From Bifidobacterium actinocoloniiforme DSM 22766 (GTDB lineage Bacteria > Actinomycetota > Actinomycetes > Actinomycetales > Bifidobacteriaceae): 64,000 nt of DNA. The position numbers were made by a program, and so were the translations under genes. The stretch lies in the NCBI RefSeq assembly GCF_001263395.1, contig NZ_CP011786.1:992001-1056000 (forward strand). The letters run 5' to 3'. The notes under the pieces are model-generated. The model was not told the DNA's origin. It saw only the letters and a program-made list of their open reading frames with translations, and did not search any database. Positions 1 to 14,072 of the stretch are shown here, one piece after another (position 1 is the first letter of the stretch; the number at the start of each line of letters is the position of its first letter).

Positions 1-44
1 TCCAATGCGTCAGACACGTTCAGGAGCTCAAATTTCGCTGCCAT
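1..44 (-). CDS. Phage protein, N-terminal fragment cut by window edge
   Basis: Only the first 14 codons lie in the window (MAAKFELLNVSDAL...). The ATG at 44 follows an AGGAGGGG Shine-Dalgarno sequence. It sits downstream of the HNH nuclease gene in the same direction, where many phages carry a terminase gene, but the visible residues are too few to assign a function. Confidence 0.55.
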   Translation of the reverse strand, partial: MAAKFELLNVSDAL

Positions 45-196
45 GATGCCCCTCCTCTTATACCGCGCGCGACCCCCTGTACAACGCTCGGGGGGAGGGG
101 AGTATTGGAGCGCGGGAGGTAGGCCGCTCAGGGCGGTTTCCAGCGATTCGAACGCCCCTACCCCCCGTGTCATCTATTACTTGTGTGCATGATTGC

Positions 197-493
197 TTAG
201 TACCATGTGCGTGAATGCATGCCTAGGGTGAGTTTGGGTGGGTCGGCTCCTCGTAGGATGTTGCAAATGCGGTGGGCGTGGCGGAAGTTGCCTGGGTCGT
301 ATTGCAGGCTCGGGTCCACGGAGACCGGCACGTAGTGGTCTAGCTCATGGCTTTCGTCCGTGCTGCCCGGCTTTACGGTGTAGTCGATGGGCAGGTCGCA
401 CAGCCAGCATGGCGCGTTCTCTTTCTTCCCCTGCTCGAAGAACCGCTGGCGCGCTTTTTGGAAGGCTCGCGTGCTGACTCTTGCTCTTGTCAT
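197..493 (-). CDS. Phage HNH endonuclease
   Basis: A 98-residue HNH nuclease. A zinc-binding CWLC pair lies near residues 29-32. The core ELDHYVPVS comes near residues 50-58, followed by RHAHRICN near 71-78, so the ligand and catalytic histidines and the asparagine are present. Phage HNH proteins of this size usually lie beside the terminase genes and help terminase cut concatemeric DNA. A GGAGG six bases before the ATG supports this start. The likely next gene begins at 44 on the same strand, which fits the entrance to a packaging module to the left. The HNH class is clear; the packaging role is inferred from position. Confidence 0.85.
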   Translation of the reverse strand: MTRARVSTRAFQKARQRFFEQGKKENAPCWLCDLPIDYTVKPGSTDESHELDHYVPVSVDPSLQYDPGNFRHAHRICNILRGADPPKLTLGMHSRTWY

Positions 494-551
494 GCATGGC
501 CTCCGCTAGTCTGGAATGATGACGCTATGAGGCGTCGGAATGGAGAGAATT

Positions 552-1034
552 ATGGGTAAGGGTAGGACGGCCGCTTGTGTGCTCTTGTGTGGCGGTTTGC
601 TTGGTTTGGGCGGATGTGGCACGGTGCATGACGTGAACACCACTAGCACTGGTGAGGGGTCGTGCTCCACCGCCAACGTGGACATATCGAAGGCTGGCCT
701 CAACGAGGGCAAGCTTGCCTTCACATCATCCCAGGCGCCTAACTCCTCCATCAAGGTGGATATCGCTACCGACAAGGGGAAGGCCAGCGTCATCGGGTCG
801 ATACCCACGTCCGACAGCGGAGTGAAAGGCGTCGACGCGAGGGGCGAATCCGTCAGCCTAGACGATGCAACGTCCAGTTCCAAGCCTTTACCGTCTGGCG
901 GTGCCGTCATGACCACCAAAGCCAATATCAGCAAACTTGGCCTGGCGGGGTCTCTACAGTCACTCACTTTCACAAGGCTCGACGCGAATACAGGATCACC
1001 GACCGGCGAGGGCTGCACCATCCACATCAAGTAA
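552..1034 (+). CDS. Prophage-encoded lipoprotein
   Basis: About 160 residues. It begins with a basic start and a hydrophobic stretch ending in a lipobox (LGLGGC), so it should be exported and lipid-anchored. The mature part is rich in Ser, Thr, Gly and Asp and ends in GCTIHIK. I see no enzyme motif. The ATG at 552 follows GGAGAGA; an upstream in-frame ATG at 540 has no good ribosome site. It is transcribed against the early operon, like the second lipoprotein at 16,655, and the architecture is the same (lipobox, low-complexity linker, small beta-rich domain). Lipoproteins expressed from prophages are often superinfection-exclusion factors. That role is inference. Confidence 0.8.
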   Translation: MGKGRTAACVLLCGGLLGLGGCGTVHDVNTTSTGEGSCSTANVDISKAGLNEGKLAFTSSQAPNSSIKVDIATDKGKASVIGSIPTSDSGVKGVDARGESVSLDDATSSSKPLPSGGAVMTTKANISKLGLAGSLQSLTFTRLDANTGSPTGEGCTIHIK

Positions 1035-1143
1035 ACAGGCCTTCGGTGCGGTCCACTTGCATGCCTTGGCCCGCCATCGTGTCGGCTATGCGCGTGAGCT
1101 GGCGCTCGATGCCTTGCAGTTGGTTGGTTTGCGGTGGCTGCAT
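1027..1143 (-). CDS. Possible 38-residue phage peptide
   Basis: A short leftward frame starting MQPPQTNQL and continuing as an amphipathic helix (IERQLTRIADTMAG), with its stop overlapping the lipoprotein end by eight bases. There is no clear ribosome-binding site before the ATG at 1,143, and an inverted repeat (1,171-1,207) lies just upstream. Weak candidate. Confidence 0.25.
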   Translation of the reverse strand: MQPPQTNQLQGIERQLTRIADTMAGQGMQVDRTEGLFT

Positions 1144-1170
1144 ACGGAGGCCGTCCACGCAAGGATGGGT

Positions 1171-1207
1171 GCCCGCAGGGGAAGAAAGGTTGAAAGACCC
1201 TGCGGGC
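1171..1207. terminator. Hairpin, possible terminator
   Basis: A perfect 10-base inverted repeat (GCCCGCAGGG / CCCTGCGGGC) with a 17-base loop, located downstream of the rightward lipoprotein gene. It has no following T-run, so a terminator role is only likely. The stretch from 1,208 to 1,332 shows nothing further I can name. Confidence 0.45.
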
Positions 1208-1332
1208 GGGTATGGGTGAGGGCCGATGGCATGGAGCCACCGACCCTCGGGTTTATTTATCGTCGGGCCCCGTGCCGGCTGACGACGACCGGCAGGACTC
1301 GAGGCCTTCAGTTTGCGACTATTATTGAGTCC

Positions 1333-1578
1333 ATGTGCCAATATGATCCTGAATGCCCGGTGCATCGTCATCGCCCGGGGACAACGTGCCCGGTGGTGTA
1401 TCGCAAGCGTATGGCTGTCATCCGTGAGCAGGAGCGGCGTGAGCAGCAGAGGCAGGACAGGATCGCGGTGTTGGTGGCCCTTGTCGTGGTGGTGGTGATG
1501 TTTGTGATCGGCTATGTCGTCGCGTCTGTCGTGGCCCCGGATTTTGTGGCACAGGTAAGACAGGCGCTGGGTATCTAA
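1333..1578 (+). CDS. Small single-pass membrane protein of the prophage
   Basis: 81 residues. The N-terminal part carries MCQYDPECPVHRHRPGTTC, a Cys/His pattern that could bind a metal. A charged helix follows (REQERREQQRQDR), then one hydrophobic segment (about residues 50-70) and a short tail. The start is uncertain because no strong Shine-Dalgarno is visible; a later in-frame ATG (MAVIREQ) is possible. It is on the plus strand like the neighbouring lipoprotein, unlike the early operon, which suggests lysogenic expression. Function unknown. Confidence 0.5.
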   Translation: MCQYDPECPVHRHRPGTTCPVVYRKRMAVIREQERREQQRQDRIAVLVALVVVVVMFVIGYVVASVVAPDFVAQVRQALGI

Positions 1579-1732
1579 TAGCAGAGCGTCGCTGCTTTCG
1601 GCCAGTACGCGGAAGGCCGGTGGCGGAGCATGCAATTTGCGGGCTTAATCACAAAGGGCCGGACCTCTCGGCCCGACCCTTACACTAAAAGCAACTGTAT
1701 TCAAAATAGCGTGTCATTAGGACATTTGCAAG

Positions 1733-2503
1733 TCAGGAGAGGCGTTTCGGCCCTGGGTGGACGCCTTGCGCGCAGTCCAGCAGCTCGGACAGGTCGCACT
1801 CGTACACGCCACGACCCACCTTGCGCGAGCGGCCGAGCCGTCCACGGCGCAGCCAGTTACGCACATCCTGCCCTTTGACTGGCACGCCTGCGTTGGCTTT
1901 GACCCATGACGCGATCCTGGCGGGCGTGCCGGTGATGGTCCTGCCCTCGAAACGCCGCCTGCGCGCCTCTGTGAGGGCTTTGACGCTCCATGTGGACCCG
2001 CATTCGGGGCAGACCACCGTCGGCTCCCCTGGCGCCCCGCTCAGGGCCGTTTTGCAAGCGGGGTTGAGGCAGTGCCCGTACACGATGCGCTCGCCTGGCG
2101 TGGACAGGCGCTCGCTGACCTGGCGTAAGGCGTCGGCCAGGTCACGGTAGTCGCGGCCGCTGTTGGGAGCGTCCCACAACCGCCCTTGACGGTTGGTCAG
2201 CTCGCGCAATAGTTTTTGCGCGCGGCCTCCCCACAAGCCGATGTCGCCGGCCACGTCCTGGATCACGTCCTCCACCTGGTCGTACAGGTCGGCGGCGCTC
2301 AAATCCATGGGCGTGGGGGCGAACGCGGGGCGCGCTCCCCCGCCCCCGCCGCCGAGCCTGACCTTGCGGTCGGCCACGGCCCTAAGCTCGTACATCCCAG
2401 TGCGCAGCCCGCGCAGGATGCGCGCCAAATCATGCCGATGCTCCTCGCACAGGGGGCCGCGCGGACCCCTGATGCACACCGGGCAGGTCATGCATTGACT
2501 CAT
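1733..2503 (-). CDS. Zinc-ribbon/HTH protein at the end of the CRISPR-Cas operon
   Basis: 256 residues. The N terminus has CMTCPVC followed by a Cys-His (CEEH) that could complete a zinc site. A second zinc ribbon lies near residues 160-190 (CLNPACK ... CPECG). The C-terminal 80 residues resemble a helix-turn-helix (ARIASWVKANAGVPV ... VRNWLRRGRLG), so the protein probably binds DNA. Its ATG (2,503) overlaps the stop of the CysH-like gene as ATGA, so it belongs to the same operon and is translationally coupled. It could regulate the operon or be a DNA-binding phage protein unrelated to the Cas genes. A glycine run follows the N-terminal domain. No family could be assigned by eye. Confidence 0.75.
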   Translation of the reverse strand: MSQCMTCPVCIRGPRGPLCEEHRHDLARILRGLRTGMYELRAVADRKVRLGGGGGGARPAFAPTPMDLSAADLYDQVEDVIQDVAGDIGLWGGRAQKLLRELTNRQGRLWDAPNSGRDYRDLADALRQVSERLSTPGERIVYGHCLNPACKTALSGAPGEPTVVCPECGSTWSVKALTEARRRRFEGRTITGTPARIASWVKANAGVPVKGQDVRNWLRRGRLGRSRKVGRGVYECDLSELLDCAQGVHPGPKRLS

Positions 2504-3273
2504 ACGCTCTCTTCTCTTGGCTGGTAGTCGCACAATGTGGGGAAATAGTCGTCCTCCCACTGCGCGATGTCGTGGTAATGGGTGGCGCTGGTGCTGATGG
2601 CGCTGCGGATGGCGTGGACGCGCAGCCATCGCCGGTCAAGGTGACCTCCGTACGATGCGGCGTAGGCGCCATGCACCGGCAAGTCACGGGCCGCCAGATA
2701 GGCGAAGACTTGCTCGGCGCTCCATCGGCCTATGGGGCGGCAGGTTTTTGTGGAGCTGAGCCCGCGGGAACGTATGCTCATGCGTCTCATGGCCGATTCG
2801 TCAGCTCGTACTCCGGTGATGTGCGGATCATGGATTTGTTCGCCGAGCATGTCTTGGTGGCGTTCTTTGACATGCCGCATGTAGTCTTCCCATCCTGGCT
2901 CCCCTCGCCGGGGGTTCCGTGGAAGGCCGGGCCTTTCGGCGTAGACGCATCCTGGATGCGCGCGGAGGAAGGCGTCGCGCACCTGGAAGCTGGGTTCCGT
3001 TTCGTAGCATGTGCCGTCCTCCCGTACCGCTGGCACCCAGATGATGGGTATCGCCGGGTCTGCCATCCATGTAAGGTGGGCGACCACCACCGAGTCCTTG
3101 CCCCAGCTGACGTTGGTTATGCAGTCCGGGTGTAGTTCATGGAATTTGCGGATTTCTTGGATTGCTTTGCGTTCCAGGGGTTCCATGAGCGCACCTATGG
3201 CTTGGTCGTATCTGCCGTACCCCCGCCAGACTTCGAGGTCGGCGGGGGTCAGGGTGCTCATGCCTTTCAGCAT
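2500..3273 (-). CDS. cysH-like: CysH-like PAPS-reductase/ATP-pyrophosphatase family protein, type IV CRISPR-associated
   Basis: 257 residues of the adenine-nucleotide alpha-hydrolase fold used by PAPS reductases. The phosphate loop is VSWGKDSVVVAHL near residues 54-66, where canonical enzymes have SGGKDS. Further motifs are GVRADES and the family-typical RPIGRWSAEQVFAYL. The catalytic Cys region of assimilatory CysH is not recognisable, and no sulfate assimilation genes are nearby, so a metabolic role is unlikely. Type IV-B CRISPR-Cas loci are known to carry a cysH-like gene of unknown function, and this gene directly follows csf3 (overlap of seven bases). It may modify RNA, nucleotide or protein; that is open. 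The ATG at 3,273 is preceded by AGGA; an ATG at 3,261 is an alternative. Confidence 0.82.
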   Translation of the reverse strand: MLKGMSTLTPADLEVWRGYGRYDQAIGALMEPLERKAIQEIRKFHELHPDCITNVSWGKDSVVVAHLTWMADPAIPIIWVPAVREDGTCYETEPSFQVRDAFLRAHPGCVYAERPGLPRNPRRGEPGWEDYMRHVKERHQDMLGEQIHDPHITGVRADESAMRRMSIRSRGLSSTKTCRPIGRWSAEQVFAYLAARDLPVHGAYAASYGGHLDRRWLRVHAIRSAISTSATHYHDIAQWEDDYFPTLCDYQPREESV

Positions 3274-3854
3274 GTGACCGTCCTGTCATCCGACCAGTAC
3301 GGCGGTCGGAATCGTCCTGTTTGCCCTTGTTGCGGCATTGGTCTGTCCTTCCATGCTTCTGGGTCGCCGGGGGTGATGTCCCATCGTGCCACGTGTCCGC
3401 ATCCGTCCGCACGGTGGGATCCGATGTGGCTGATCGAGTGGAGCAGGTCTTCCACCTGGTCGGGGTCGGTGGCTTGCAGGTCCCATTCGATGGTGTCGAT
3501 GATGGATGCCGGTACCGTCAGGTCACGGGCTTTCCATGCGTCCAATCCGTGATGGTTCTTCCTCTCTTTGGTGTAGACGGCCAGTTGCCAGTCCGGTGGC
3601 CTGCGTCTCAATTGGAGGCTGGTCCGCGCGAGGATGTGCGGGTGCGCGCGTGACGTCTTCCACCCCCAGGTGCCGCAGGCTTCCCATTGCTCCACTGGCA
3701 GCAGGTAGTCTTTGATGCTTCCTCTTGGTGGCGTCGGGTCATGCTCCCGGGCGTGCATGGCCCAGGCCAGGAGCCCATCGAGGGGGAGCGGGTTTCCTTC
3801 CACGCCGCAGGCCGCGCTGTCGAGGGTGGCGGCGACGTGCAGTGGCATGCTCAT
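3267..3854 (-). CDS. csf3: Csf3/Cas5-like RAMP protein of a type IV-like CRISPR effector
   Basis: 195 residues. The C-terminal glycine-rich stretch HIGSHRADGCGHVARW (about residues 148-163) matches the G-loop of Cas5-group RAMP proteins, and the central basic/aromatic segment (TWGWKTSRAHPHI) fits an RNA-handle-binding surface. In type IV complexes Csf3 caps the 5' end of the guide. The ATG overlaps the csf2 stop as ATGA. Assignment rests on the G-loop, the size and the gene order csf1-cas11-csf2-csf3, which is that of type IV loci. No catalytic His pair typical of processing Cas5d is evident. Confidence 0.75.
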   Translation of the reverse strand: MSMPLHVAATLDSAACGVEGNPLPLDGLLAWAMHAREHDPTPPRGSIKDYLLPVEQWEACGTWGWKTSRAHPHILARTSLQLRRRPPDWQLAVYTKERKNHHGLDAWKARDLTVPASIIDTIEWDLQATDPDQVEDLLHSISHIGSHRADGCGHVARWDITPGDPEAWKDRPMPQQGQTGRFRPPYWSDDRTVTC

Positions 3855-4681
3855 GCGAGAGCCTCCAAAAGGCCGAGGATGTCTGGTTTGTTATCCGAGA
3901 TTATGCCGCGTAGGTCACCCGCCGCTCCCGCATATGGGGTATCCGCTGTGATAGTCGCGCGCCCGTACCCCGTGCCGGTTTTGGCGGCTAGCATTGTTTT
4001 GCCGTCCGGGGCCCACAGATCCAGTGCCGCCTTAAGCATTCGTACATCCATGTCTGTGGCGGCTGCGCTGAGTTCGAGGCTGCCTTCGAGCCGCGCTCCG
4101 GGGCTGAGCGTTTGCACGCTGTAGATCATCTGCGTGCTGCCGGCGGCTTCAGCTCCCATGTCCATGAGCGCGGCTATTGGGCTTGTGGCTTGGTCCATCC
4201 TGGTTCCGAATTCCTCGCTGCGCCAGTATCCGGCGGGTTTCAAGTCGTCGGTGTCGCGGAGACGGCCCCGGTTTTCCGCGCAGGCGAGGATCGCGTCGCT
4301 GGCCCTGAGCGTGCCTTCGATGATGTCGCTTTTACTGGCATACCCGAGCATGGTCAGCCATGGGAGGATGCGTGCGGCTTGCCTGTAGGCCTCAAGGTCG
4401 GTTTGCGCGCCTTTCTCAGTGACCGCGCCGCCCGTGAAGAGCAGGTCCGTCTGCCCTTTGGTGAGGCTCCCGGGTTCGACTTGGAGTGTTTTGACGGTCT
4501 CCCAGGCCAGGGCGTTGCGGAGCCCGTGGCGGATGGAGTTTGCCGACAGGAAGGGCACTTGGGCGATCCTCCCGTCAGGGGTGTGCACCGTCTGGGTGCG
4601 TAGGATGCTGGTGTTGCCTTGTGTGCCTGCGCCATGGTGGAAGGGCGAGGTCAGGGTGAGTCCGTAATTGATGATGGTCAT
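3851..4681 (-). CDS. csf2: Csf2/Cas7-like backbone protein
   Basis: 276 residues. The start MTIINYGLTLTSPFHHGAG resembles the first RRM strand of Cas7-type RAMP proteins, and SANSIRHGLRNAL near residues 46-58 matches the conserved helix seen in Csf2/Csm3-type proteins. A glycine-rich loop occurs near the C terminus (KTGTGYGRATI). Cas7 proteins polymerise along the guide RNA to form the complex backbone. The gene is preceded by the small-subunit candidate with a two-base gap and followed by csf3 with an ATGA overlap. No DxD or catalytic Asp loop typical of target-cleaving Csm3 is evident, as expected for a binding-only effector. Confidence 0.8.
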   Translation of the reverse strand: MTIINYGLTLTSPFHHGAGTQGNTSILRTQTVHTPDGRIAQVPFLSANSIRHGLRNALAWETVKTLQVEPGSLTKGQTDLLFTGGAVTEKGAQTDLEAYRQAARILPWLTMLGYASKSDIIEGTLRASDAILACAENRGRLRDTDDLKPAGYWRSEEFGTRMDQATSPIAALMDMGAEAAGSTQMIYSVQTLSPGARLEGSLELSAAATDMDVRMLKAALDLWAPDGKTMLAAKTGTGYGRATITADTPYAGAAGDLRGIISDNKPDILGLLEALA

Positions 4682-4682
4682 G

Positions 4683-5060
4683 TCAGTTCTCCTTCTTGGT
4701 GGTCTTGGCTTGGCGGCGGCGCATGTCAGCTAGGGCGATGATGTAAACGATGGTGCGGTCGATGTGGTCCTGCCATGCTGCGTAGTCCGCGTCTATCAGC
4801 TCGCATGCGGACAACACCGCTGGGCTTTGCGACACGGTGATCTGTGGTATCTGCAATTTCCGGCATGCGGTGGTCAGCATCTGGTGTGATTCCGACGATC
4901 CGGCTGCCGCGGTCTGTATTGCGGTTGCCGCGCGTCCGCCGCTCCAAAAGTCGATGCGGCTTGGGCCGTCGTCGGTAAGGCTGTCGCGCAGGGCGAAGAT
5001 GAGGTTGATGGTCGCTTCGTCCATCTGGTCTTCGGTTGGGGTTGTCTGCTGTTTTGTCAT
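4683..5060 (-). CDS. Small alpha-helical protein, Cas11-like small subunit candidate
   Basis: 125 residues, predicted nearly all helical (for example EATINLIFALRDSL, HIDRTIVYIIALADMRRRQAK) with a very basic C terminus. It sits between csf1 and csf2, exactly where type IV-B loci keep cas11. Small subunits diverge strongly, so the call rests on size, helicity and position. The ATG at 5,060 overlaps the csf1 stop (ATGA); the longer upstream frame lacks support. Confidence 0.6.
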   Translation of the reverse strand: MTKQQTTPTEDQMDEATINLIFALRDSLTDDGPSRIDFWSGGRAATAIQTAAAGSSESHQMLTTACRKLQIPQITVSQSPAVLSACELIDADYAAWQDHIDRTIVYIIALADMRRRQAKTTKKEN

Positions 5061-5794
5061 GAGTGGTTTCCTTCCATGATTGGTTTGGTTATGGCCCATA
5101 GGGCCAGGTCTAGGATCGGGCTTCCTTTCCATGGGTTGATATCGGAGTTAAGCCGTTTCCAGGCTTTGGCCTGTTCCATGCCCTCGAAGCGTGGTGGCTG
5201 GCCGGCCTGCACCATTTCGGCGCTGGCTCCCATCCTCCGTAATTCGAGCGCGGGCCGGTAGGCTGCGGAGAAGGCTTCCTGCGTGTAAGGCACGTCCGCC
5301 GTCTCCATGCGGATCATGCCTGTGGGCCCATGGTTGAGCCCCGTGTATGGCATGACGTGTTTCTGACCGCTGACGGCGATGCTGACCGCCCATTCGCTCT
5401 CAGGTGGGTTGAGGAGCAGACCGAGGATTGGTGACGTATCGTGCCTTGATGTCAGGCAGATTCCGTCATGCTGTCCAATCCAAGCTGCCGCTTTCTCCTG
5501 GCTGTCTGGCAGTGTGACGCCGGGTGCCGCCGCGACGCTCCACATGCGGATGGTGCGCACCCCCCGGCCTGAGCAGGCCCACAGGCAGCAGTCGCACACT
5601 CGTCCTGATTCGGGGCTGGCGTACAGCGACCGATCGGTGAAATTCGATCCAAGCGCTTTGCTTGCGTCCGCTGTGACCGCCTGTCGCGTACCGCACACCT
5701 TGCACACCGATTCCGACTCGGACAGCAGTTTTGCCGCCGCCCCTTCGGGTTGCGGGCTTCCCAGCAGCCCCCATATCATCCTTACTGCTTTCAT
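5057..5794 (-). CDS. csf1: Csf1-like large subunit with zinc finger
   Basis: 245 residues. Two cysteine clusters, CKVCG near residues 32-36 and CDCC near 68-71, give a treble-clef-like zinc finger characteristic of Csf1, the Cas8-equivalent of type IV systems. The remainder has no nuclease motif. In type IV complexes Csf1 sits at the 5' handle and contributes to target or PAM contact. It is coupled to the cas6e-like gene upstream (ATGA at 5,791-5,794) and to the small-subunit gene downstream (ATGA at 5,057-5,060). Confidence comes from zinc finger plus gene order rather than from overall similarity. Confidence 0.68.
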   Translation of the reverse strand: MKAVRMIWGLLGSPQPEGAAAKLLSESESVCKVCGTRQAVTADASKALGSNFTDRSLYASPESGRVCDCCLWACSGRGVRTIRMWSVAAAPGVTLPDSQEKAAAWIGQHDGICLTSRHDTSPILGLLLNPPESEWAVSIAVSGQKHVMPYTGLNHGPTGMIRMETADVPYTQEAFSAAYRPALELRRMGASAEMVQAGQPPRFEGMEQAKAWKRLNSDINPWKGSPILDLALWAITKPIMEGNHS

Positions 5795-6357
5795 GACGAC
5801 CTCCTCGCCAGCACAAGGCCGGCCCCGAATCGTTTGCCCCTGCCTACCCCCGTCATCAGCGTGTTCGCGAACTCGTCGGGGTCCTTTACGGTGGCGAACC
5901 CGTGGAACGCGGCGCGGGAGATGGTGAGCGGCTGTTCACCGTGCCGTCCCTTCGCGGGGGACATTTCCTGCACCGCATCGATGTCAGCCTTGCAGCCTTT
6001 CAAGTGCCGGCACAGCCAAGCTGGCATATCATCCGCGCCGAGTGGCGCCCTTCGCCGGTGCGCCTTACAACGTGTCGCGTTGATGACGCCGGATATCTCC
6101 ACACGTGCGCGCGAATCGAAAAACAGGCTTGCTTTGGCCTGCCGTATGCTTGCCGCCTCACGGCGGAAGGTCTCTGCATGCAGTGGGCGGCGGGTCTGCA
6201 CCAGCAAGACCGCAGGCCGGGGTGAGCACCAGAGCGACGCGGGGTCACCGGTGGACGCGGTGATTATCCGATGCACTAGCGCTGAATCAAACGGGATTGC
6301 TCTGCCATTTCGGTTGAATATGATTTCCGTATGCCACACGCAGTTTGTCTCATTCAC
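5791..6357 (-). CDS. cas6e-like: Cas6e-like CRISPR RNA endoribonuclease
   Basis: 188 residues with the Cas6e layout: a conserved strand (AVLLVQTRRPL), the RRRAPL segment before an AWLCRHLKG helix, then LTISRAAFHGFATV and a C-terminal glycine-rich loop TGVGRGKRFGAGLVLA, which matches the GIGxxKxxGxGLL signature of Cas6e. Cas6e cuts the repeat hairpin of pre-crRNA and stays bound to the 3' handle. A candidate catalytic His lies near residue 28 (ALVHRIITA), where Cas6e proteins usually have one. The likely start is the GTG at 6,357, overlapping the stop of the preceding 26-codon gene. It is short for the family (about 200-225), mainly in the N-terminal half. No CRISPR array is present in the window for it to process. 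Confidence 0.8.
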   Translation of the reverse strand: MNETNCVWHTEIIFNRNGRAIPFDSALVHRIITASTGDPASLWCSPRPAVLLVQTRRPLHAETFRREAASIRQAKASLFFDSRARVEISGVINATRCKAHRRRAPLGADDMPAWLCRHLKGCKADIDAVQEMSPAKGRHGEQPLTISRAAFHGFATVKDPDEFANTLMTGVGRGKRFGAGLVLARRSS

Positions 6358-6430
6358 TGTTTGCCTCCTCCGGTCCTGGCTCCATGCCGGTGCCGTCCGG
6401 CGTGTGCATCTTTACAATCCGGTCGCTCAT
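6350..6430 (-). CDS. 26-residue peptide upstream of cas6e-like gene
   Basis: A very short acidic frame (MSDRIVKMHTPDGTGMEPGP...) with a strong AAGGAGG before its ATG. That ATG overlaps the stop of the upstream gene (ATGA), and its own stop overlaps the cas6e start. It may be a real micro-protein or a translational coupling device. Function unknown. Confidence 0.5.
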   Translation of the reverse strand: MSDRIVKMHTPDGTGMEPGPEEANSE

Positions 6431-6729
6431 GCGTCCTCCTTGTAGTCCCGGCAGATCGCGATGTACCAGCCGCACACAGTGATTATGCGGAATTTGGGGG
6501 CCCTGAACAGCGCCTTGGCCAGATTCTCGCAATGCTTGGCGCGTTCTTCGGCTTCTTCCGCATAGTGCATCTCCGGCCGGCGGGAGGTGCGGATCATCCG
6601 ATACTTGTAGATGCGGCTATTGAGCCAGTCGAAGGCCAGCCGGGCGGCCTGGACGACCAACCCCACCACGACAGCGGCGACCACCACCACGCCGCATGCC
6701 ACCAGGCCCAACACAAACTCGTTACTCAT
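6427..6729 (-). CDS. Single-pass membrane protein of the early operon
   Basis: 100 residues. A strong hydrophobic Val/Ala-rich segment occupies about residues 5-28. It is followed by a basic region (RIYKYRMIRTSRRPE), a helix with Glu/Ala repeats and a C-terminal part with two cysteines (VCGWYIAIC). The ATG at 6,729 overlaps the upstream gene stop. No family recognised. Confidence 0.65.
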   Translation of the reverse strand: MSNEFVLGLVACGVVVVAAVVVGLVVQAARLAFDWLNSRIYKYRMIRTSRRPEMHYAEEAEERAKHCENLAKALFRAPKFRIITVCGWYIAICRDYKEDA

Positions 6730-7043
6730 GCGTCCTCCTCTTTGGTCGCGTCCATGAGCCACTGGCCCAGGCGTCGGGCCATGCGACGGGTGATGGTGAT
6801 GTCGCGCTCGGCCTCGGCCATGCTCAGGCTCACCTTGCCAGCCGTCGCCTCGATGCTGAATGGCGGGTAGTCCCAGCCGCCGTCGGCGTCACCCGGGTAG
6901 TCGATGACGGCGCGCTTGGACCCGTCGTCTTCCACCCATCCATTGAGCTTCCAACCGCCGTCCGTCATGGGCAGCGCGGCATCCGGATGCAGGTCGCTTA
7001 GACGCAAGTGCGCGTGTGCGCGCTCAGCCATCGCTTTACTCAT
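6726..7043 (-). CDS. Uncharacterised phage early protein
   Basis: 105 residues, soluble, with a Gly/Asp/Trp-rich middle (GGWKLNGWVEDD, GDADGGWDYPP) and a C-terminal helix (RRMARRLGQWLMDATKEED). It is preceded by GGGGTGAG eight bases before the ATG and coupled at both ends to its neighbours. I do not recognise the family. Confidence 0.65.
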   Translation of the reverse strand: MSKAMAERAHAHLRLSDLHPDAALPMTDGGWKLNGWVEDDGSKRAVIDYPGDADGGWDYPPFSIEATAGKVSLSMAEAERDITITRRMARRLGQWLMDATKEEDA

Positions 7044-7386
7044 TGCTCACCCCTTGCGCGGCCGCGTATACGCCATCGTTTGGCCCTTGCCAGCCGAGGA
7101 ACCCTCGTAACGCTGTTTCCGCGGCTTGCCGGTAGGCGTCCTTAGCGACCGGGGCTTCGCCCGCCCATGAGTCGTTGCAGAGCGCCTGCCCGCTGTCACG
7201 CAGGCTCTCATAGATTGTTTGCGCGGCCTCGTCGATGTTGTCCACGGTGAGGGCGCAGTCGGATTCCGCTTGCTTGTATCCCAGGTGGAAGCCGACTAGC
7301 AGCGTCTCGTCCTCGCCGTCCAGGACGCCGGTTTCCTCCGTGAGATAGGCCTTGTAGGCCTGGGCGCTCTTGTTGATGTCTAGCAT
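7036..7386 (-). CDS. Uncharacterised acidic phage early protein
   Basis: 116 residues, acidic, mostly helical (KSAQAYKAYLTEE, IDEAAQTIYESLRDSG, DAYRQAAETALRGFLG). The ATG at 7,386 forms a TGATG overlap with the upstream stop and follows GGAGGA. Its end overlaps the next gene by eight bases. Function unknown. Confidence 0.65.
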   Translation of the reverse strand: MLDINKSAQAYKAYLTEETGVLDGEDETLLVGFHLGYKQAESDCALTVDNIDEAAQTIYESLRDSGQALCNDSWAGEAPVAKDAYRQAAETALRGFLGWQGPNDGVYAAAQGVSNE

Positions 7387-7889
7387 CACTCCTCCTTGCC
7401 TTGTCCGATGATCCGGTTGATGTCCATGTCGCCGACTCTGCGGCCGATGAAGTGCCCGGTTGGCTTGCGCCTGGGTTTGGGTTGGGCGGGCTCGATGCGT
7501 AGCCGTTTGGCCTCCTGGGCGGCGCGCTCGTGCGCCTGGCCTACGCTCAACCCGTGCTGAACGCCTTTGATGAGCCGCCGCCGGTAGGCGGTGTAGTGGT
7601 CGGAGTCGATGCCCGCCTGGTCCATGAGCCGACCGATCTGCGCGTCCTCAGGGATGCGGGCCTTGCGCACCGCTTTGATGCCCGCGTTCACATCGCCCGA
7701 GCCCATCCACCGGCCCGTCTGATTGTTGGCGTAGTAGCGTCTGACCGCTTCCATCGCGTCCCGCATGGTCGCATCCGGGATCAGCTCCTCGTGGAAAGTC
7801 CTGGCTTCCAGGTCGGTGATGGCGGCGTTGCCGTGGTGGGCGCGGATCTTGGCGAGCACGAGCGTGCTGTCCGCTATGCTCAGGCTCAT
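7386..7889 (-). CDS. Phage replication-associated protein, possible helicase loader
   Basis: 167 residues directly after the replication initiator gene (ATGA overlap). The N-terminal half, with LEARTFHEELIPDATMRDAMEAVRRYYA and then a Gly/Asp-initiated helix, is laid out like the N-terminal domain of phage G39P/DnaI-type helicase-loading proteins. The C-terminal half is basic (KPRRKPTGHFIGRR) and ends in a conserved-looking MDINRIIGQG. A loader for host DnaB is a reasonable inference from position and layout, but no ATPase motif is present. Confidence 0.6.
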   Translation of the reverse strand: MSLSIADSTLVLAKIRAHHGNAAITDLEARTFHEELIPDATMRDAMEAVRRYYANNQTGRWMGSGDVNAGIKAVRKARIPEDAQIGRLMDQAGIDSDHYTAYRRRLIKGVQHGLSVGQAHERAAQEAKRLRIEPAQPKPRRKPTGHFIGRRVGDMDINRIIGQGKEE

Positions 7890-8737
7890 GAGCCGATCTC
7901 CTTTCGTTGGGGTGGTTTGTTTTGTGCTTGTTCTTCGGCCATGTAGCGGGCCACGAGGGCCGCGTTCGCGTCCTGGTTGGCTTGCGTACGAGCCCTCCCG
8001 AGGCTGCTGCTTTGCGCGCGCAGCCGGAGTTGGTCGTATTTGGCGCGGAATTTGGGCATGGAGAGGATGTTGCTTTTCCAGAAGCTGTCCTGCTGGCACC
8101 AGTCGATGAGGCGGGCGGCTTCTTGGGGGTCCCGTCCGTCCGTATCGATCATGAGGCGGGCCGCGTCCAGCCAGCGTTGGGTGATGTCGGGGCGTTTGGA
8201 CCCGTTGCGCACGATCCAGTCTTGCAGGCGTTCGCAGAGGGCCACGATTTCCGGTCTTGATTCGCGGACTATATTTATATCTTTAGATATAAATAGGGGT
8301 ACGGGTACGGGGTTCGTTTTTGCTTCATGTTTTGCTTCCGCATTTGCTTCATGTTTTGCTTCCGCATTTGCTGAAGCGTTTGCTTCCTGTTTGCTTCTCC
8401 TGACCTTGCCGGACTTGATGCCACCAAGCTTCCCAGCCTCGGAACGGAGCTCTTTCTGGGCTTTAACTTTCTCCCGTGGAGGGTTGTACTTGAGGAAATC
8501 GTGGATCTGCCAGTAGTCGCCGTGGTCCTCCCACAGTCCGACGTCGACGAGCGTCTGCGCGTCCTCTTCGGTCGCGTCGGGGTGCAAAGTGCGAAGCACC
8601 CGCTTAAGCACTCGCCCATCAGTTTGCGAAGCAGAAGCCCAAGCACCTGCTTCGACCCAGAGGCCAACCGCGCTCAACGAAGCCTGGACCATCTTCTCGT
8701 TGCGCGTAAGATTGTCATCAACCTTAAACCAAGTCAT
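7886..8737 (-). CDS. Phage replication initiator (winged-helix, DnaD/replisome-organiser type)
   Basis: 283 residues. The N-terminal 100 residues (MTWFKVDDNLTRNEKMVQ ... GLWEDHGDYWQIHDFLKYNPP) match the winged-helix domain of phage replisome organisers. The middle is a low-complexity linker of repeated EANAEAKH units encoded by perfect DNA repeats. The C-terminal domain (RPDITQRWLDAARLMIDTDG ... PKFRAKYDQLR) is typical of such initiators. As in lambda O, the origin probably lies within the gene (see the repeat feature). The ATG at 8,737 is served by AAAGGAGG; the GTG at 8,746 overlaps that site and is unlikely to be used. Confidence 0.82.
   Translation of the reverse strand: MTWFKVDDNLTRNEKMVQASLSAVGLWVEAGAWASASQTDGRVLKRVLRTLHPDATEEDAQTLVDVGLWEDHGDYWQIHDFLKYNPPREKVKAQKELRSEAGKLGGIKSGKVRRSKQEANASANAEAKHEANAEAKHEAKTNPVPVPLFISKDINIVRESRPEIVALCERLQDWIVRNGSKRPDITQRWLDAARLMIDTDGRDPQEAARLIDWCQQDSFWKSNILSMPKFRAKYDQLRLRAQSSSLGRARTQANQDANAALVARYMAEEQAQNKPPQRKEIGS
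8273..8368. repeat. Probable phage origin: AT-rich palindrome and 24-bp tandem repeats inside the initiator gene
   Basis: A 10-base-arm palindrome (ATTTATATCT, two bases, AGATATAAAT) lies at 8,273-8,294 in an otherwise GC-rich gene. From 8,321 there are two perfect tandem 24-bp copies beginning TGCTTCATG (8,321-8,344 and 8,345-8,368), then degenerate copies to about 8,397. An easily melted palindrome beside iterons inside the initiator gene is the usual layout of a theta phage origin. Confidence 0.6.
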
Positions 8738-8765
8738 CTCCGTCACCTCCTTTCATACATGCCGC

Positions 8766-8933
8766 TCATCGTCCGCGCTCGATCCACGGGCGTAATTGCT
8801 CGACCCTCGTAAGGGCCTGCCGGAGCATCCAGTCGGTCTCCGGGCACGGGCAGGAGCGTGCTGCCCCTTCGGCCCGCTCAAGCTCCTGCCGGGCCGCGTC
8901 CCACACCGGGCCAAGCCGCTCATGCGCGCTCAT
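8766..8933 (-). CDS. Small helical phage protein
   Basis: 55 residues (MSAHERLGPVWDAARQELERAEG...), helical, with a CPCP pair in the middle. The ATG is preceded by GGAGGAGTC and overlaps the nuclease stop. No family recognised. Confidence 0.6.
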   Translation of the reverse strand: MSAHERLGPVWDAARQELERAEGAARSCPCPETDWMLRQALTRVEQLRPWIERGR

Positions 8934-9298
8934 GACTCCTCCTCTTGCGCTCCTGCGAGGCGGGCGAGGGTGTCCAGGTCCATGAGCACGTACTGGTCCC
9001 CCATCTGCTTGCCGCCCTTGCCGGGACGGTGGAACACGACCATGCCGTAATCCGCGCCGGCGTTGAACGCCTCCTTCTTGGCCTGGTCCAGCCAAGTGGC
9101 GAGCTTGAACCGTGTCCAGTCCTTGCACTCCAGCACCAGGCTCTTGCCGCCGATGTAGAGGCCTTTGATGTCACCCTCATCGGCGTTGCCGTGCAGGGCC
9201 TCCCGGTGGATCATGCCCTCCGGGTCCCCGATACGGCCGCGCACATAGCCCAGCACCTGGGTCTCGAACGCCGTGCCCTTCCGCTTCTGCCGGCTCAT
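8930..9298 (-). CDS. PD-(D/E)XK nuclease of phage recombination module
   Basis: 122 residues. The core DEGDIKGLYIGGKSLVLECKD gives the Asp, Glu-x-Lys arrangement of the PD-(D/E)XK superfamily, followed by a helix with Lys/Glu (WLDQAKKEAFNAGAD) and a closing strand (YGMVVFHRPG). Phage proteins of this size and position are Holliday-junction-resolvase-like or VRR-type nucleases. It is preceded by GGGAGGAGTC and lies among SSB, RecT and methylase-like genes, so recombination or replication repair is likely. Which branched substrate it cuts cannot be told. Confidence 0.78.
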   Translation of the reverse strand: MSRQKRKGTAFETQVLGYVRGRIGDPEGMIHREALHGNADEGDIKGLYIGGKSLVLECKDWTRFKLATWLDQAKKEAFNAGADYGMVVFHRPGKGGKQMGDQYVLMDLDTLARLAGAQEEES

Positions 9299-9444
9299 GA
9301 CTCCTCCCATGCGGGCCAGTCGCAGCCCATGCAATGACCTGACGCGCTTACAGCCCCACCGCACAGTGGGCACGTATGGTCAGGCTCGGGAGGCGTCTCC
9401 GGCCCATCCCACGCCGCCTCGAACGGCCTCGAATCCCATCTCAT
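9295..9444 (-). CDS. 49-residue zinc-ribbon protein
   Basis: Two metal-binding pairs, CPLC and CMGC, are separated by about 13 residues (HTCPLCGGAVSASGHCMGCD), giving a minimal zinc ribbon after a Pro-rich N terminus. The ATG follows GGAAGGAG and overlaps the methylase-like stop; the TGA overlaps the nuclease ATG. Both couplings make it a real gene despite its size. Confidence 0.7.
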   Translation of the reverse strand: MRWDSRPFEAAWDGPETPPEPDHTCPLCGGAVSASGHCMGCDWPAWEES

Positions 9445-10154
9445 GGCCTCGCTCCTTCCGTTAATTGGCCCATGCTTACGCCGAACACCGGCGACTCGAC
9501 ATGCGGCCCGTACCTGTCTTCCTCGCCAACCCAATCCCGCAGATGGAAGTAATCCAGAACCGCGCGCGTGTACGGCATTACGTTCACCGAGGAGAACGCG
9601 AGGAAATCGTTCTTGTCGTTCTGGAGGAAGAACACGCCCTTGGTGACGCCGGTCAGGGTGTCCCCGTGTATCAGCACGGCGTTCATGCCGCGCAACGCCA
9701 TGTTGAACACCAAAAAAGGGAACGCGCGGTCGGATATCTCCTGCCCCACGTACAGCCAGTCCTGCGGCCTGTACAGGAACGGATCGGTTTGCAGGCAGTG
9801 CGACCACCATCTGCTGATCAGCAGCCCACCGGTGCCCGCGGTCGGATCGTACGAGATGACGCCACGATGCGGGTCGTTGGAAGCCGAATCCGTCAAGTCC
9901 GACAAGAGGTCGCACACCTCGTCCGGCGTGAAGTCCTGCTTGTGTTTTCGCCGGTCCGCCTGCTCCTCCTCGAAATACGAGTGGAACCAGTCATGCGTGA
10001 CATCCGTGTCCACATCCAGCATTTGCCGGAACACGCGCTCACGGTCGTCTTTGTCCAGTACGATCTCCATGACGCGCCCTGGGGCCTTGAACGGCTCGTC
10101 AATCCCGAGGACGCGGTTGATGGCGTCGGAATCGAGCTTAGAATTCGGGCTCAC
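9441..10154 (-). CDS. Phage N6-methylase-fold protein lacking the catalytic NPPY/F motif
   Basis: About 237 residues. DFTPDEVCDLLSDL and the SAM-binding motif I (DPTAGTGGLL) match the HsdM/N6-adenine methylase core. Where NPPY or NPPF should follow, the sequence instead reads GDTLTGVTKGVFFLQNDKNDFLAFSSVNVMP. I recall similar NPPY-less proteins in other phages, so this looks like a family feature rather than a random mutation. It may bind SAM or DNA without methylating, or use a different catalytic loop. The start is one of two GTG codons (10,154 or 10,163) within the end of the ssb gene, served by GGGGGTGG. Confidence 0.7.
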   Translation of the reverse strand: MSPNSKLDSDAINRVLGIDEPFKAPGRVMEIVLDKDDRERVFRQMLDVDTDVTHDWFHSYFEEEQADRRKHKQDFTPDEVCDLLSDLTDSASNDPHRGVISYDPTAGTGGLLISRWWSHCLQTDPFLYRPQDWLYVGQEISDRAFPFLVFNMALRGMNAVLIHGDTLTGVTKGVFFLQNDKNDFLAFSSVNVMPYTRAVLDYFHLRDWVGEEDRYGPHVESPVFGVSMGQLTEGARP

Positions 10155-10596
10155 CGTTGCCACCCCCGAAGTCCTGCGCGCCCCACGGGTCGGACGTGGC
10201 AGGTTGCTGCTGTGATCGCGTCGCGCCCTGCCCGCCGCCCCAGGAGCCGGCCTGGCCCTGCTGCTGCCGGGGCTCGGAGTGGATGATGCCCACATGCCTG
10301 GCCGACACCTCCAGCGCCTGCCGGGCCTGCCCCTGCTTGTCCGTGTACTCGCGCACCTTAAGCCCCCCGTTGACCAGGAGCTTGGTGCCCTTATGGATGT
10401 ACTTGGCCTGGTCCAAGGCCTGCTTTCCGTTCAACCGCACCCGGTACCAGGCGGTGCCCTGTTCCACCCAATTGTGCGACTGGTCCATGTAGCCCTGGTT
10501 CACGGCCACGCTCACCGTGGTCACGCTCCCGCCTTGGAAGGTCCGGGTCTCGGGATCGCCGCCAGCGTTCCCGGTCAATTCAATCGCCGTGCTCAT
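10138..10596 (-). CDS. ssb: Phage single-stranded DNA-binding protein
   Basis: 152 residues. The OB-fold is clear: IELTGNAGGDPETRTF, the strand AWYRVRLNGKQA, and KGTKLLVNGGLKVREY. A Gly/Gln-rich linker follows, and the C terminus ends GNGEPEF, a variant of the acidic DDDIPF-type tip that recruits partners. AGAGAGGA precedes the ATG at 10,596. It lies between RecT and the nuclease, forming a recombination/replication module. Confidence 0.92.
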   Translation of the reverse strand: MSTAIELTGNAGGDPETRTFQGGSVTTVSVAVNQGYMDQSHNWVEQGTAWYRVRLNGKQALDQAKYIHKGTKLLVNGGLKVREYTDKQGQARQALEVSARHVGIIHSEPRQQQGQAGSWGGGQGATRSQQQPATSDPWGAQDFGGGNGEPEF

Positions 10597-10598
10597 GT

Positions 10599-10766
10599 TC
10601 AGATTCCTCTCTTCAACGCGTCCTTCAATTGTTTTGGTTGTGCCCAGTCTCGGCAGGGGTAGCGTTTGTCGATCGCGTGCGCGCACCGGTCGTCGCCTAT
10701 GTCGGGCCTATGGCAGTGCTCGCATCTCCGCACCGCCCCATGCAACAGCCCACTGTCAGGGGTCAC
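10599..10766 (-). CDS. 55-residue zinc-finger-like protein
   Basis: Starts at the GTG that overlaps the recT stop (GTGA) and ends two bases before the ssb ATG. It carries CEHCHRPD and later Cys residues (DRCAHAIDKRYPCRD), a possible four-Cys/His metal site, and a basic C terminus. It fills the recT-ssb gap exactly, which supports it. Confidence 0.6.
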   Translation of the reverse strand: MTPDSGLLHGAVRRCEHCHRPDIGDDRCAHAIDKRYPCRDWAQPKQLKDALKRGI

Positions 10767-11575
10767 GCCGCCGCCTCCCCCATTCCGAGCGCCTTGCGCG
10801 TGCGCGACACCACCAGCTCAGGCGCGGACAGGAGGGCCTCCGCCGCCGCTTGCGACAGCGTGCCGGTCGACCCGGTCTCCTCCCCCGTCAACGCCGTCAA
10901 CGCGCGCGCCGCCTGCGCCCTCGTGGAGACGCCGCCCTCCTTGAGCAGGCGATTGATCTCGGCGCGCTGCTCCTTGGACGCCATCAGCTCGGCCTCCGCC
11001 GCCGGCTCCCCGTCCCGCCCCTGGTCCGTGGGCTCCTCGACGCGCGCTTGCACGTCCGCGTCCCCTTGGTCCAGGTCATCCATCTCATCAGGCGTGTACG
11101 CCACACCGTACAAGGCTTCGGGGCAGGCCTCGCGGGCCACCGCGCTGATGGCCCGCCAGGTCAGCATCGTCATGGGCTGCTTACGGTAATTGTCGTTACC
11201 AGCCAAGCCCATCCGCTCGGCCCACGCCTTATCACGGGTCACGCTGATCGGATAGTCCGGGTCATCGGCGCGCACCACCGTGGCCGTCACGCTCACCGCC
11301 GCCTCATCCTTAGCGATGCGCAGCTTATGGCCAGCGCGCCGCACCTGGGCGGCGATCAGCTCCGCGCCCATCGTCGGCTTGCCCTTGATCACGTTGATCC
11401 GGTACAGGCTCTCAGCCGGGCTCAAGCCCATCGACTGGCCGAAACCGACCGCGACCAGGATGTTGGCCGGCTTGCCCTTATACGCGGCCGGGATGATGTC
11501 GCTGCTCTCCGCCAGCTTGGCCCACTGCATCTGATCGCGCAGCGCGCCGCCCGCCTCGGTCAGATCGCGTCCCAT
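10763..11575 (-). CDS. recT: RecT-family single-strand annealing protein
   Basis: 270 residues. The RecT core is visible: ILVAVGFGQSMGLSPAESLYRI, then KPTMGAELIAAQVRRAGHKL and a Trp/Arg-rich end of the domain (MLTWRAISAVAREACPEALYG), followed by YTPDE. The C-terminal third is an acidic linker and a helical domain likely for SSB contact. It anneals complementary single strands in phage recombination. A GAGGAGG precedes the ATG. The gene overlaps the upstream frame by 16 bases and couples to the small zinc-finger gene downstream. No RecE exonuclease is evident; the small PD-(D/E)XK nuclease may partner it. Confidence 0.88.
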   Translation of the reverse strand: MGRDLTEAGGALRDQMQWAKLAESSDIIPAAYKGKPANILVAVGFGQSMGLSPAESLYRINVIKGKPTMGAELIAAQVRRAGHKLRIAKDEAAVSVTATVVRADDPDYPISVTRDKAWAERMGLAGNDNYRKQPMTMLTWRAISAVAREACPEALYGVAYTPDEMDDLDQGDADVQARVEEPTDQGRDGEPAAEAELMASKEQRAEINRLLKEGGVSTRAQAARALTALTGEETGSTGTLSQAAAEALLSAPELVVSRTRKALGMGEAAA

Positions 11576-12096
11576 GCGTCCTCCTCATCATCCTCGTCCT
11601 CGCTGTCGCCGGCCTCCAAGCCCAGCACCTGCCGCGCCTGCCCGACCAGCTCCTGATCGGCGTAGATGTCATCCCAGGACTTGACCTTGCTGACCGCCAC
11701 CGTGTCCGCCGTGCCCCTGGACAATTCCACGCCATCAGGAGTCTCGCCTCCGAACTGGCGTATCAGATGCTCGATCGCGTCATGCTTGGTGACCACATCC
11801 ACCGGCATGAGCGTCTCCTCCACGCCGCTAGTCTCGCCATGCTCGTCCAACCACTCGGCGTACGCTCGCGGGTCCTTCACCCGCCACTTGGGCTCAGCGC
11901 CCCGCTTGGCCGTCACCACGCCCGTATGCGTCGTGTAATGCTCCCTCGGGTCCATCACGTCAGCCATGTATCCTTTGAGCGCGTCCACCCGCTCCGTGAG
12001 CACCCGCTGCATCGCCGTCGCCAGCGTGATCTGCTCAGCCGCCTCATACGGCGTCAGATCCCCATCCGCTATCTGATCCTGGATGCTCTTTTGCAT
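11560..12096 (-). CDS. Uncharacterised phage early protein upstream of recT
   Basis: 178 residues. An N-terminal helix (YEAAEQITLATAMQRVLTERVDALKGYMADV) precedes a mixed region (VVTAKRGAEPKWRVKDPRAYAEWL) and an acidic C terminus (DSEDEDDEEDAWD). Position beside recT resembles Gam-like or recombination accessory genes, but I cannot assign it. The ATG at 12,096 forms a TGATG overlap and follows AAGGAGGA. Confidence 0.65.
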   Translation of the reverse strand: MQKSIQDQIADGDLTPYEAAEQITLATAMQRVLTERVDALKGYMADVMDPREHYTTHTGVVTAKRGAEPKWRVKDPRAYAEWLDEHGETSGVEETLMPVDVVTKHDAIEHLIRQFGGETPDGVELSRGTADTVAVSKVKSWDDIYADQELVGQARQVLGLEAGDSEDEDDEEDAWDAI

Positions 12097-12536
12097 CACT
12101 TATCCTCCTTAACGTCTCCATCGGCACTTATCTTGTCCGGCCCGTCCTCGAAGTGCACCGGCTCGAACGGGGCATATTGCGTGATTTCGCACAGATCGAG
12201 CGGGCTCGGGTCGGCAATGGGCTCCCCTCGATGCTGGACGAGCGCCGCCCGCCCCCACTCACTGACGACCCACACGTCACCTTCCCGGTCCCGGTAGTAG
12301 CCAGACTCCGTGGGCGGCTTGCGCAGGGACACGGATGCCACGCAATCGGCAAGACGCCATGCTTTGCTCGTGTCGTCGCGCTCCAGGATCGCCCGGTGGT
12401 CGCAGTCCGGGCCCAAGGTGATTAATGTAGGGGAGGTCAGCATCAGGTCCGTTACCCCAAAGCCGTTGCAAAATTTAACGTGCACATGCTTGCCCTCCAG
12501 CTGTTCAGCCGCCAGGCCCTCATACCATTCACTCAA
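12096..12536 (-). CDS. Uncharacterised phage early protein
   Basis: 146 residues. Strands such as HVHVKFCNGFGVTDLMLT and DVWVVSEWGRAALVQHRG suggest a beta-rich fold. The TTG at 12,536 has AAAGGA at the right distance; the TTG at 12,551, overlapping the previous stop, is an alternative without a ribosome site. Function unknown. Confidence 0.6.
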   Translation of the reverse strand: MSEWYEGLAAEQLEGKHVHVKFCNGFGVTDLMLTSPTLITLGPDCDHRAILERDDTSKAWRLADCVASVSLRKPPTESGYYRDREGDVWVVSEWGRAALVQHRGEPIADPSPLDLCEITQYAPFEPVHFEDGPDKISADGDVKEDK

Positions 12537-12547
12537 TTCGATTCCTT

Positions 12548-12619
12548 TCAATGCTTGTTGCTTATCCAGCTGACCCAGACGGCCAGTCCCAGCAGGAGGG
12601 CCGCGAGCGCTTGCTGCAT
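12548..12619 (-). CDS. 23-residue membrane micro-protein
   Basis: One hydrophobic segment (ALAALLLGLAVWVSW) and a short basic tail. The ATG is in a TGATG overlap with the upstream gene. Too short for homology, but the coupling and a clean transmembrane segment support it. Confidence 0.45.
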   Translation of the reverse strand: MQQALAALLLGLAVWVSWISNKH

Positions 12620-12804
12620 CACTCCGCCCGCTCCACCCGCGCCCAAGCCCGCCAAGCCGCCGGCAGGCAGGCGAGGAGGACGGCTGTGTGCAGGATTGAG
12701 ATGACGCCGTGCGCCAAGCCAGCCAGCAGCCATAGGATCGCCCACACGCTCAGCACGGCCGCGAGGGCCGCCGCGAGCGCATGCCACCAGTCACGCGCGG
12801 TCAT
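12619..12804 (-). CDS. Two-segment small membrane protein
   Basis: 61 residues with two hydrophobic stretches (ALAAALAAVLSVWAILWLLA and VISILHTAVLLACLPAAW) and a basic end. The ATG overlaps the excisionase-like stop. Possibly holin-like in shape, but its place in the early operon argues against a lysis role. Unknown. Confidence 0.5.
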   Translation of the reverse strand: MTARDWWHALAAALAAVLSVWAILWLLAGLAHGVISILHTAVLLACLPAAWRAWARVERAE

Positions 12805-12989
12805 GATTGCTTCTTCCCGTAGTTCAGGGATTGGGCGATCTCTTCAAGGTCGCCGGGGCGCCAATAGTAGGAATTTCCTATAAAGATTCCGTGGTCGCGC
12901 GCTAGTTTCATGAATGTGTCTTCGGGCATTCCCGCGAACAGTTGCCGTGCCTGGTTTTTATCGAGTAGTAATGGTTTCAGTTCACTCAT
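12801..12989 (-). CDS. AlpA/excisionase-like HTH protein
   Basis: 62 residues with the layout LLDKNQARQLFAGMPEDTFMKLARDHGI, a helix-turn-helix, then YYWRPGDLEEIAQSL, the usual winged end of AlpA/Xis-type regulators and excisionases. A GGAGGTGACGGC precedes the ATG. Here it lies early in the lytic operon, so it could direct excision by the integrase at 18,760-20,208 or act as an activator. Confidence 0.65.
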   Translation of the reverse strand: MSELKPLLLDKNQARQLFAGMPEDTFMKLARDHGIFIGNSYYWRPGDLEEIAQSLNYGKKQS

Positions 12990-13156
12990 GCCGTCACCTC
13001 CATGTTTGCGGTCATCCATATGAGCGCCGCGTAGATCAGTACCGCCACGGCCGCGGTGCCTGGCGTGACCGGCTGCTGCTCCCTCCCGATTCGGAGCACG
13101 GAGTTCACCATGCCCATGAGGAACAGGCCTATTAGCACCCATTGCTGCCAGGTCAC
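12986..13156 (-). CDS. Two-pass small membrane protein
   Basis: 56 residues starting at the GTG that overlaps the antirepressor stop. Two hydrophobic segments (WVLIGLFLMGMVNSVL and AAVAVLIYAALIWM) flank a short basic loop. Its TGA overlaps the next ATG. It is one of at least four tiny membrane genes in this operon. Confidence 0.5.
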   Translation of the reverse strand: MTWQQWVLIGLFLMGMVNSVLRIGREQQPVTPGTAAVAVLIYAALIWMTANMEVTA

Positions 13157-13938: not shown

Positions 13939-14072
13939 TGGATTCACCTTTCTTTGTCACCGCCGCAGTGGCAGCTGCGGCATTTACTTACTTATGAGAA
14001 AACTGTGTATAGGATTTGCGATGGGCCCCTTACCCGAAGCGACTATGCCGAAGACATCAATCCCGCTTTACA

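Follow-up and report, generated by a model that had tools for sequence, protein, structure and literature searches.

Type IV-B CRISPR-Cas loci, exemplified by the Csf complex of Mycobacterium sp. JS623 (PDB 7jhy) and the locus of Skermania phage SPI1, carry csf1, cas11, csf2 and csf3 in this order with a CysH-like gene on mobile elements. They come without array, nuclease or adaptation genes, and their function is an open question for which a role as an RNA sponge has been proposed (PMC7937560). Typical members also lack cas6 (PMC8175902, PMC7937560), as a first-pass annotation of the locus described here, made from the sequence alone, had stated of IV-B in general. Among the other subtypes, dinG is carried by IV-A and IV-E, a Cas10-like subunit distinguishes IV-C, and RecD is found in IV-D (PMC11127173). 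In a 64,000-nt window (genome positions 992001-1056000) of the single-contig, 1.83-Mb genome of Bifidobacterium actinocoloniiforme DSM 22766, we found a prophage-borne module with a type IV-B core and an added Cas6e, whose relatives reside in hosts with type I-E systems that target the same prophages. We propose, at about an even chance, that this module is a nuclease-free anti-CRISPR that captures the guide RNAs of the host I-E system by means of its own Cas6e.

The six-gene module and its type IV-B relatives

The module consists of six adjacent minus-strand open reading frames (ORFs) at window positions 2500-6357, in the leftward order cas6e-csf1-cas11-csf2-csf3-cysH, with ends that overlap or abut one another. 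The first-pass annotation had proposed these genes, positions and family names, and all of them held up when the products were compared with hidden Markov models of Cas families, each matching well beyond chance. The Cas6 product matched Pfam PF08798 (E=3.6e-14) and, over 188 of 188 positions, the PADLOC model Cas6_5_IV (typeIV_Cas6; E=1.3e-114), with matches to Cas6e models down to 3e-17. Csf1 was recovered by PADLOC Csf1_0_IV (3.3e-62) and TIGR03114 (1.6e-4), Csf2 by PADLOC (2.1e-79) and Csf3 by TIGR03116 (5.3e-17) and PADLOC (3.5e-37), and a profile of the Csf2 clade retrieved the solved type IV-B Csf2 (7jhy) from the PDB at 3.3e-15. The Cas11 product matched PADLOC Csf4gr11 (1.1e-63) over residues 29-149, and because this match begins only at residue 29, the true start of cas11 probably lies near 5060 rather than at 5132. 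The last gene encodes a CysH-like protein (PF01507, 1.9e-10) with the PP-loop SWGKDS that had been read earlier, and it adjoins csf3, the position that it also occupies in other IV-B loci.

Fourteen further loci in actinobacterial genomes or viral contigs had cas6e directly upstream of csf1. Several of these are on viral contigs, and the genomes include that of Scrofimicrobium canadense, two from Corynebacterium and another two from the class. In a tree of Csf1, Csf2 and Csf3 from 32 loci, all 15 cas6-bearing loci fell on one side of a single branch (support 97/97; 88/89 in a smaller tree of 27 loci), their nearest cas6-less relatives being three viral contigs and their sister group phage IV-B loci without cas6. 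Among the viral IV-B loci gathered initially by broad alignment, cas6 occurred only in the present locus. The candidate parallel in Skermania phage SPI1 was rejected, as the gene upstream of its csf1 is not Cas6. The clade alignment contained the CxxC zinc-ribbon-like cysteines that had been taken for a Csf1-type zinc finger. Bifidobacterium-like and Scrofimicrobium members retain these cysteines, whereas the Corynebacterium members (L070/L071) have some of them replaced.

The glycine loop reported earlier for the Cas6 was also conserved, all four glycines of this C-terminal loop being kept in 15 of 15 clade sequences. His29, which aligns with the histidine of the host Cas6e and which we take from established knowledge of Cas6e to be the catalytic residue, was kept in 14 of the 15. 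An AlphaFold2 model built from the 15-row alignment (predicted local distance difference test score, 94.5) resembled most closely the RNA-bound Thermus thermophilus Cas6e/Cse3 (2y8w; template-modelling score, 0.81), compared with 0.48 for a type IV-A Cas6 (6njy), and a clade profile searched against the PDB returned Cas6e/Cse3 chains only (best, 3e-14). By sequence and predicted fold, the phage protein is thus a true Cas6e, like the Cse3/CasE of type I-E and unlike the Cas6 of type IV-A; with its fold, putative catalytic histidine and glycine loop kept, it is therefore probably enzymatically active.

We compared the module with each type IV subtype, as the first-pass annotation had suggested. 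The csf1/csf2/csf3 core, cas11 between csf1 and csf2, the CysH-like gene next to csf3 and the lack of any detected array or nuclease are those of IV-B, and csf1 through cysH follow one another as they do in phage and plasmid IV-B loci. The departure from IV-B is the crRNA (CRISPR RNA)-processing enzyme, which lies directly upstream of csf1 here and in the 14 related loci and marks a separate clade; since Cas6e is present, we classed the module as a IV-B-derived variant rather than as typical IV-B. With IV-A and the proposed IV-E the module shares the combination of a type IV core and a cas6, but it differs from them by its cas11 and cysH, by the Cas6e-like nature of its Cas6 and by the absence of a detected array. 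Neither DinG nor RecD, the latter expected of IV-D, was found among the neighbours by Pfam and PHROGs searches or among the prophage ORFs read by eye, a reading made without DinG or RecD profiles. The large subunit is a 245-aa Csf1 rather than the Cas10-like protein with an HD domain that defines IV-C. Nor does the prophage hold an I-E Cascade, its only I-E-like products being the Cas6e and a separate Cas8e-like protein; the complete I-E locus of the host is chromosomal and outside the prophage, a Cas1 search of the genome found this locus only, and no cas3 was seen among the prophage ORFs.

The earlier suggestion of a rare or new variant away from the best-known subtypes was thus supported: Cas6e together with CysH falls outside the named subtypes. 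As a refinement, the module is not unplaced, since gene order and homology make its core clearly IV-B. Automated surveys had already picked up a near-identical Cas6 but assigned it no subtype, as the PADLOC model that fits it end to end is named only 'Cas6_5_IV'. Neither the variant nor its clade was found described in a literature search whose range did not extend to the Pinilla-Redondo 2020 and Moya-Beltran 2021 surveys.

Beside cysH, several cas6-bearing loci, other than the present prophage, have a DNA methyltransferase-like gene (by motif reading). Methyltransferase-like genes adjoin the CysH-like gene in IV-B loci L069-L073 and L026, the last of these and L073 having a ParB-like gene as well. 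Such neighbours may hint at a role in nucleic-acid modification.

Host type I-E systems and spacers against the resident prophage

In the present host, the I-E locus is complete and its array holds 80 spacers. The I-E signature protein Cse1 was encoded in six of six cas6-bearing host genomes examined, in neither of two hosts of cas6-less or partial loci, and in 73 of 395 genomes (18.5%) of the class sample. This association is nominally strong (binomial, 4e-5; Fisher within the class sample, 0.006), with a base rate that is class-wide rather than genus-matched; within Bifidobacterium, I-E has been reported in 112 of 954 strains (PMC7284854). In this respect the clade, whose examined hosts are all I-E-positive, is unlike IV-B at large, for which negative co-occurrence with other CRISPR systems was reported (PMC7937560).

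In five of the six genomes, the resident prophage was matched by the host's own I-E spacers. Allowing up to two mismatches, 44 of 307 spacers from the six genomes together matched, compared with published baseline rates of self-targeting of 0.4% for spacers and 18% for genomes (PMC6990116), and shuffled-spacer controls gave 0 matches. The search was genome-wide (array BLAST) for the present genome and covered the prophage region in the other hosts. Targeting was densest in Corynebacterium ulceribovis DSM 45146 (33/99 spacers, 19 of them perfect), with one perfect match inside csf2 and one 32/33 match inside cas6. Matches in Scrofimicrobium (10/28) all fell within a prophage whose ends are marked by a 55-bp repeat close to a tRNA sequence, and those in Corynebacterium MSK041 (3/49) lay in tail genes of the cas6-bearing prophage; the counts of 33, 10 and 3 include matches with as many as 6 or 7 mismatches. 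The host DNA retrieved beyond the mapped prophage ends was free of spacer matches in both C. ulceribovis and Scrofimicrobium. Genome G689 had 5 matching spacers of 43, with a position-1 mismatch that corresponds to the last repeat base, and the present genome had 2 of 80, each matching at 31/33. No prophage match was found in the sixth host, G679, whose poorly assembled array yielded 8 spacers. The I-E locus of C. ulceribovis is described in the paper on its genome (PMC4572677), in which a term search found neither csf genes nor a prophage mentioned.

Most protospacers were preceded by 5'-AA, in agreement with the AAC protospacer-adjacent motif (PAM) inferred for Bifidobacterium I-E (PMC7284854). 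When a lysogen has I-E spacers that match its prophage perfectly and beside a PAM, the usual explanation is that the I-E system is blocked or dead, a logic that has been used for anti-CRISPR discovery (PMC6990116). If dead, the host systems would simply be silent, the prophages unpurged and the spacers persistent, and a IV-B module with Cas6 would have a role unrelated to host CRISPR. Two spacers of the present host, one at each array end, do match its own chromosomal genes at 33/33, as such silence would allow, but neither site has an AA PAM. We regard such a coincidence as improbable, given that the reading frames of the I-E cas genes are open in those loci that were read and that long arrays with many perfect prophage matches imply past or present adaptation.

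Candidate functions of the module

The cas6e-IV-B operon is common to all these self-targeted prophages, and the targeting of related resident prophages by the host arrays suggests that the complex disarms host CRISPR by taking its guide RNAs. In its specific form, which we put somewhat below even, the proposal is of a dedicated phage-borne multi-subunit decoy Cascade, in which a IV-B complex with its own Cas6e processes host I-E crRNAs and locks them away. The phage Cas6e, judging by its fold, putative catalytic histidine and glycine loop, would bind and cut host I-E repeat RNA; Csf3, Csf1, Csf2 and Cas11 would then replace host Cas5, Cas8e, Cas7 and Cse2 on the resulting crRNAs. A complex free of nuclease should not recruit Cas3, so that prophage-targeting crRNAs would become harmless and the self-targeted lysogen would survive. 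A role for CysH may lie in modifying the complex or its RNA, or in releasing either.

Two other phage strategies bear comparison. A RuvC-inactive II-C Cas9 mimic was proposed to take host crRNAs (PMC10910872). It too is a phage-encoded relative of a CRISPR effector that comes with no array and faces host spacers against the phage, although Cas9 is a class 2 effector with a tracrRNA and the present module is a multi-subunit class 1 assembly with its own processing enzyme. The Racr RNA anti-CRISPRs counter class 1 systems by imitating a component, as we propose here, but they do so with a repeat-like RNA (PMC10651486) and not with proteins such as Cas6e and an effector.

Several points weigh against crRNA capture. 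When a cas6-less IV-B complex was co-expressed with an I-E Cas6 and array, crRNAs were not enriched (PMC7937560), and the same study reported that IV-B co-occurs negatively with other CRISPR systems. BLAST aligned the phage and host Cas6e of this genome over a short stretch only (41% over 39 residues), which leaves recognition of the host repeat putative. Other anti-CRISPR genes in the prophages, or a silent I-E system, would equally permit self-targeting. The I-E association draws on six hosts and a base rate that is not genus-matched, and in the present genome, where the two matching spacers have 2 mismatches each, some at the seed, mutation may suffice.

The Cas6e could also act alone as an anti-CRISPR, through repeat binding, mis-processing or a block of host Cas6e, with the Csf proteins binding RNA unselectively or having a CysH-linked role. 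The putative active site and fold kept in the phage Cas6 would suit this explanation, as would the assembly of the IV-B Csf filament on heterogeneous RNA (PMC7937560). We hold it to be rather unlikely, however, because cas6 is restricted to one Csf clade and fixed directly upstream of csf1, which suggests a joint function.

No CRISPR array was found by repeat scans in the 43-kb prophage, which had no direct repeats at 48-84 nt spacing, or in the related loci scanned, and searches of the prophage and related loci with the host I-E repeats of four genomes and an E. coli-type repeat gave no I-E-like repeat above background. Rfam returned only tRNAs and one ribosomal protein leader from the prophage. 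These results bear on a guided function in which Cas6e and Csf would use host I-E crRNAs, or an array that escaped detection, to silence rival phages or plasmids in the manner of IV-A, other anti-CRISPRs accounting for the self-targeting. IV-A does draw on the adaptation machinery of host I-E systems and can repress rival plasmids without cutting them (review, PMC11656645), and the host arrays hold many potential guide spacers. Against this, the prophage array was not found, no helicase of the DinG/RecD kind appeared in the family search of the neighbours or the ORF reading of the prophage, and captured crRNAs would often steer the complex to its own prophage; we consider guided competition unlikely.

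A two-repeat, I-E-like mini-CRISPR with a spacing of 61 nt was noticed inside hypothetical gene 26 of Propionibacterium phage Anatole (L148:1500-1590), and it was also matched in Propionibacterium freudenreichii phages B22, B3, Doucette and E1.

With a monophyletic Cas6e-bearing IV-B branch in self-targeted I-E lysogens, the hypothesis of a sponge or decoy can be tested directly in named strains, C. ulceribovis DSM 45146 among them. If the decoy Cascade is real, one branch of the enigmatic IV-B systems would have a function, and anti-CRISPRs would gain a new class.

The prophage and other features

That the module lies inside a prophage, as the first-pass annotation had stated, was confirmed by a 45-bp attachment (att) repeat at the 3' end of tRNA-Arg(TCT), found at genome 968951 and 1012361 and enclosing 43,455 bp with integrase, replication, phage structural and lysis genes. 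The module lies downstream of the replication genes and on their strand. The lysis region is 79% identical to that of Bifidobacterium phage BigBern1, which fits the bifidobacterial origin proposed earlier, and IMG/VR holds the identical module within a 43,070-bp contig.

Coordinates of the module, the prophage and chromosomal features
Feature	Position	Strand	Description
cas6e-like	window 5791..6357	-	188 aa, GTG start; predicted crRNA-processing endoribonuclease
csf1, Cas8-like large subunit	window 5057..5794	-	245 aa; CxxC zinc-ribbon-like cysteines (clade alignment)
cas11-like small subunit	window 4683..5132	-	PADLOC Csf4gr11/Cas11 profile
csf2, Cas7-like backbone	window 3851..4681	-	276 aa; PADLOC and 7jhy match
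csf3, Cas5-like	window 3267..3854	-	195 aa; TIGR03116 and PADLOC
cysH-like, PAPS-reductase family	window 2500..3273	-	257 aa; PP-loop SWGKDS; IV-B-type accessory
Prophage, right part	window 1..20405		whole prophage, genome 968951-1012405 (43.4 kb)
Integrase	window 18760-20208		Phage_integrase, 1.3e-12
attR core	window 20361-20405		45-bp att repeat at tRNA-Arg
Cse1/Cas8e-like protein	genome 969500-971782, left of window, just inside attL	-	760 aa; N-terminal PF09481 (2.1e-55) and C-terminal helix-turn-helix
Chromosomal self-matches	genome 1819516-1819548 and 1160675-1160707		araA-like and DtxR-like genes by motif reading

The Cse1/Cas8e-like protein of the prophage is 28% identical to host Cse1, and no counterpart was found in the other viral contigs or phage records searched. 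A second Cse1 gene was likewise absent from the other cas6-bearing host genomes searched, and we rejected this protein as a conserved part of the IV-B variant. From its domains, it could conceivably be a second I-E mimic, a decoy of Cas8e, or a regulator. The class-wide Cse1 search also gave a second group of matches, at ~170-220 bits and ending near profile position 430, which recurs in actinobacterial genomes, several of which also have a full-length Cse1; the prophage protein scores in that range.

Between cas3 and cas8e of the host I-E locus (genome ~1647094-1647192), two degenerate repeat-like hairpins flank a short spacer-like stretch. This pair resembles crRNA-like regulators of cas operons, and a further degenerate repeat lies at 1660249.

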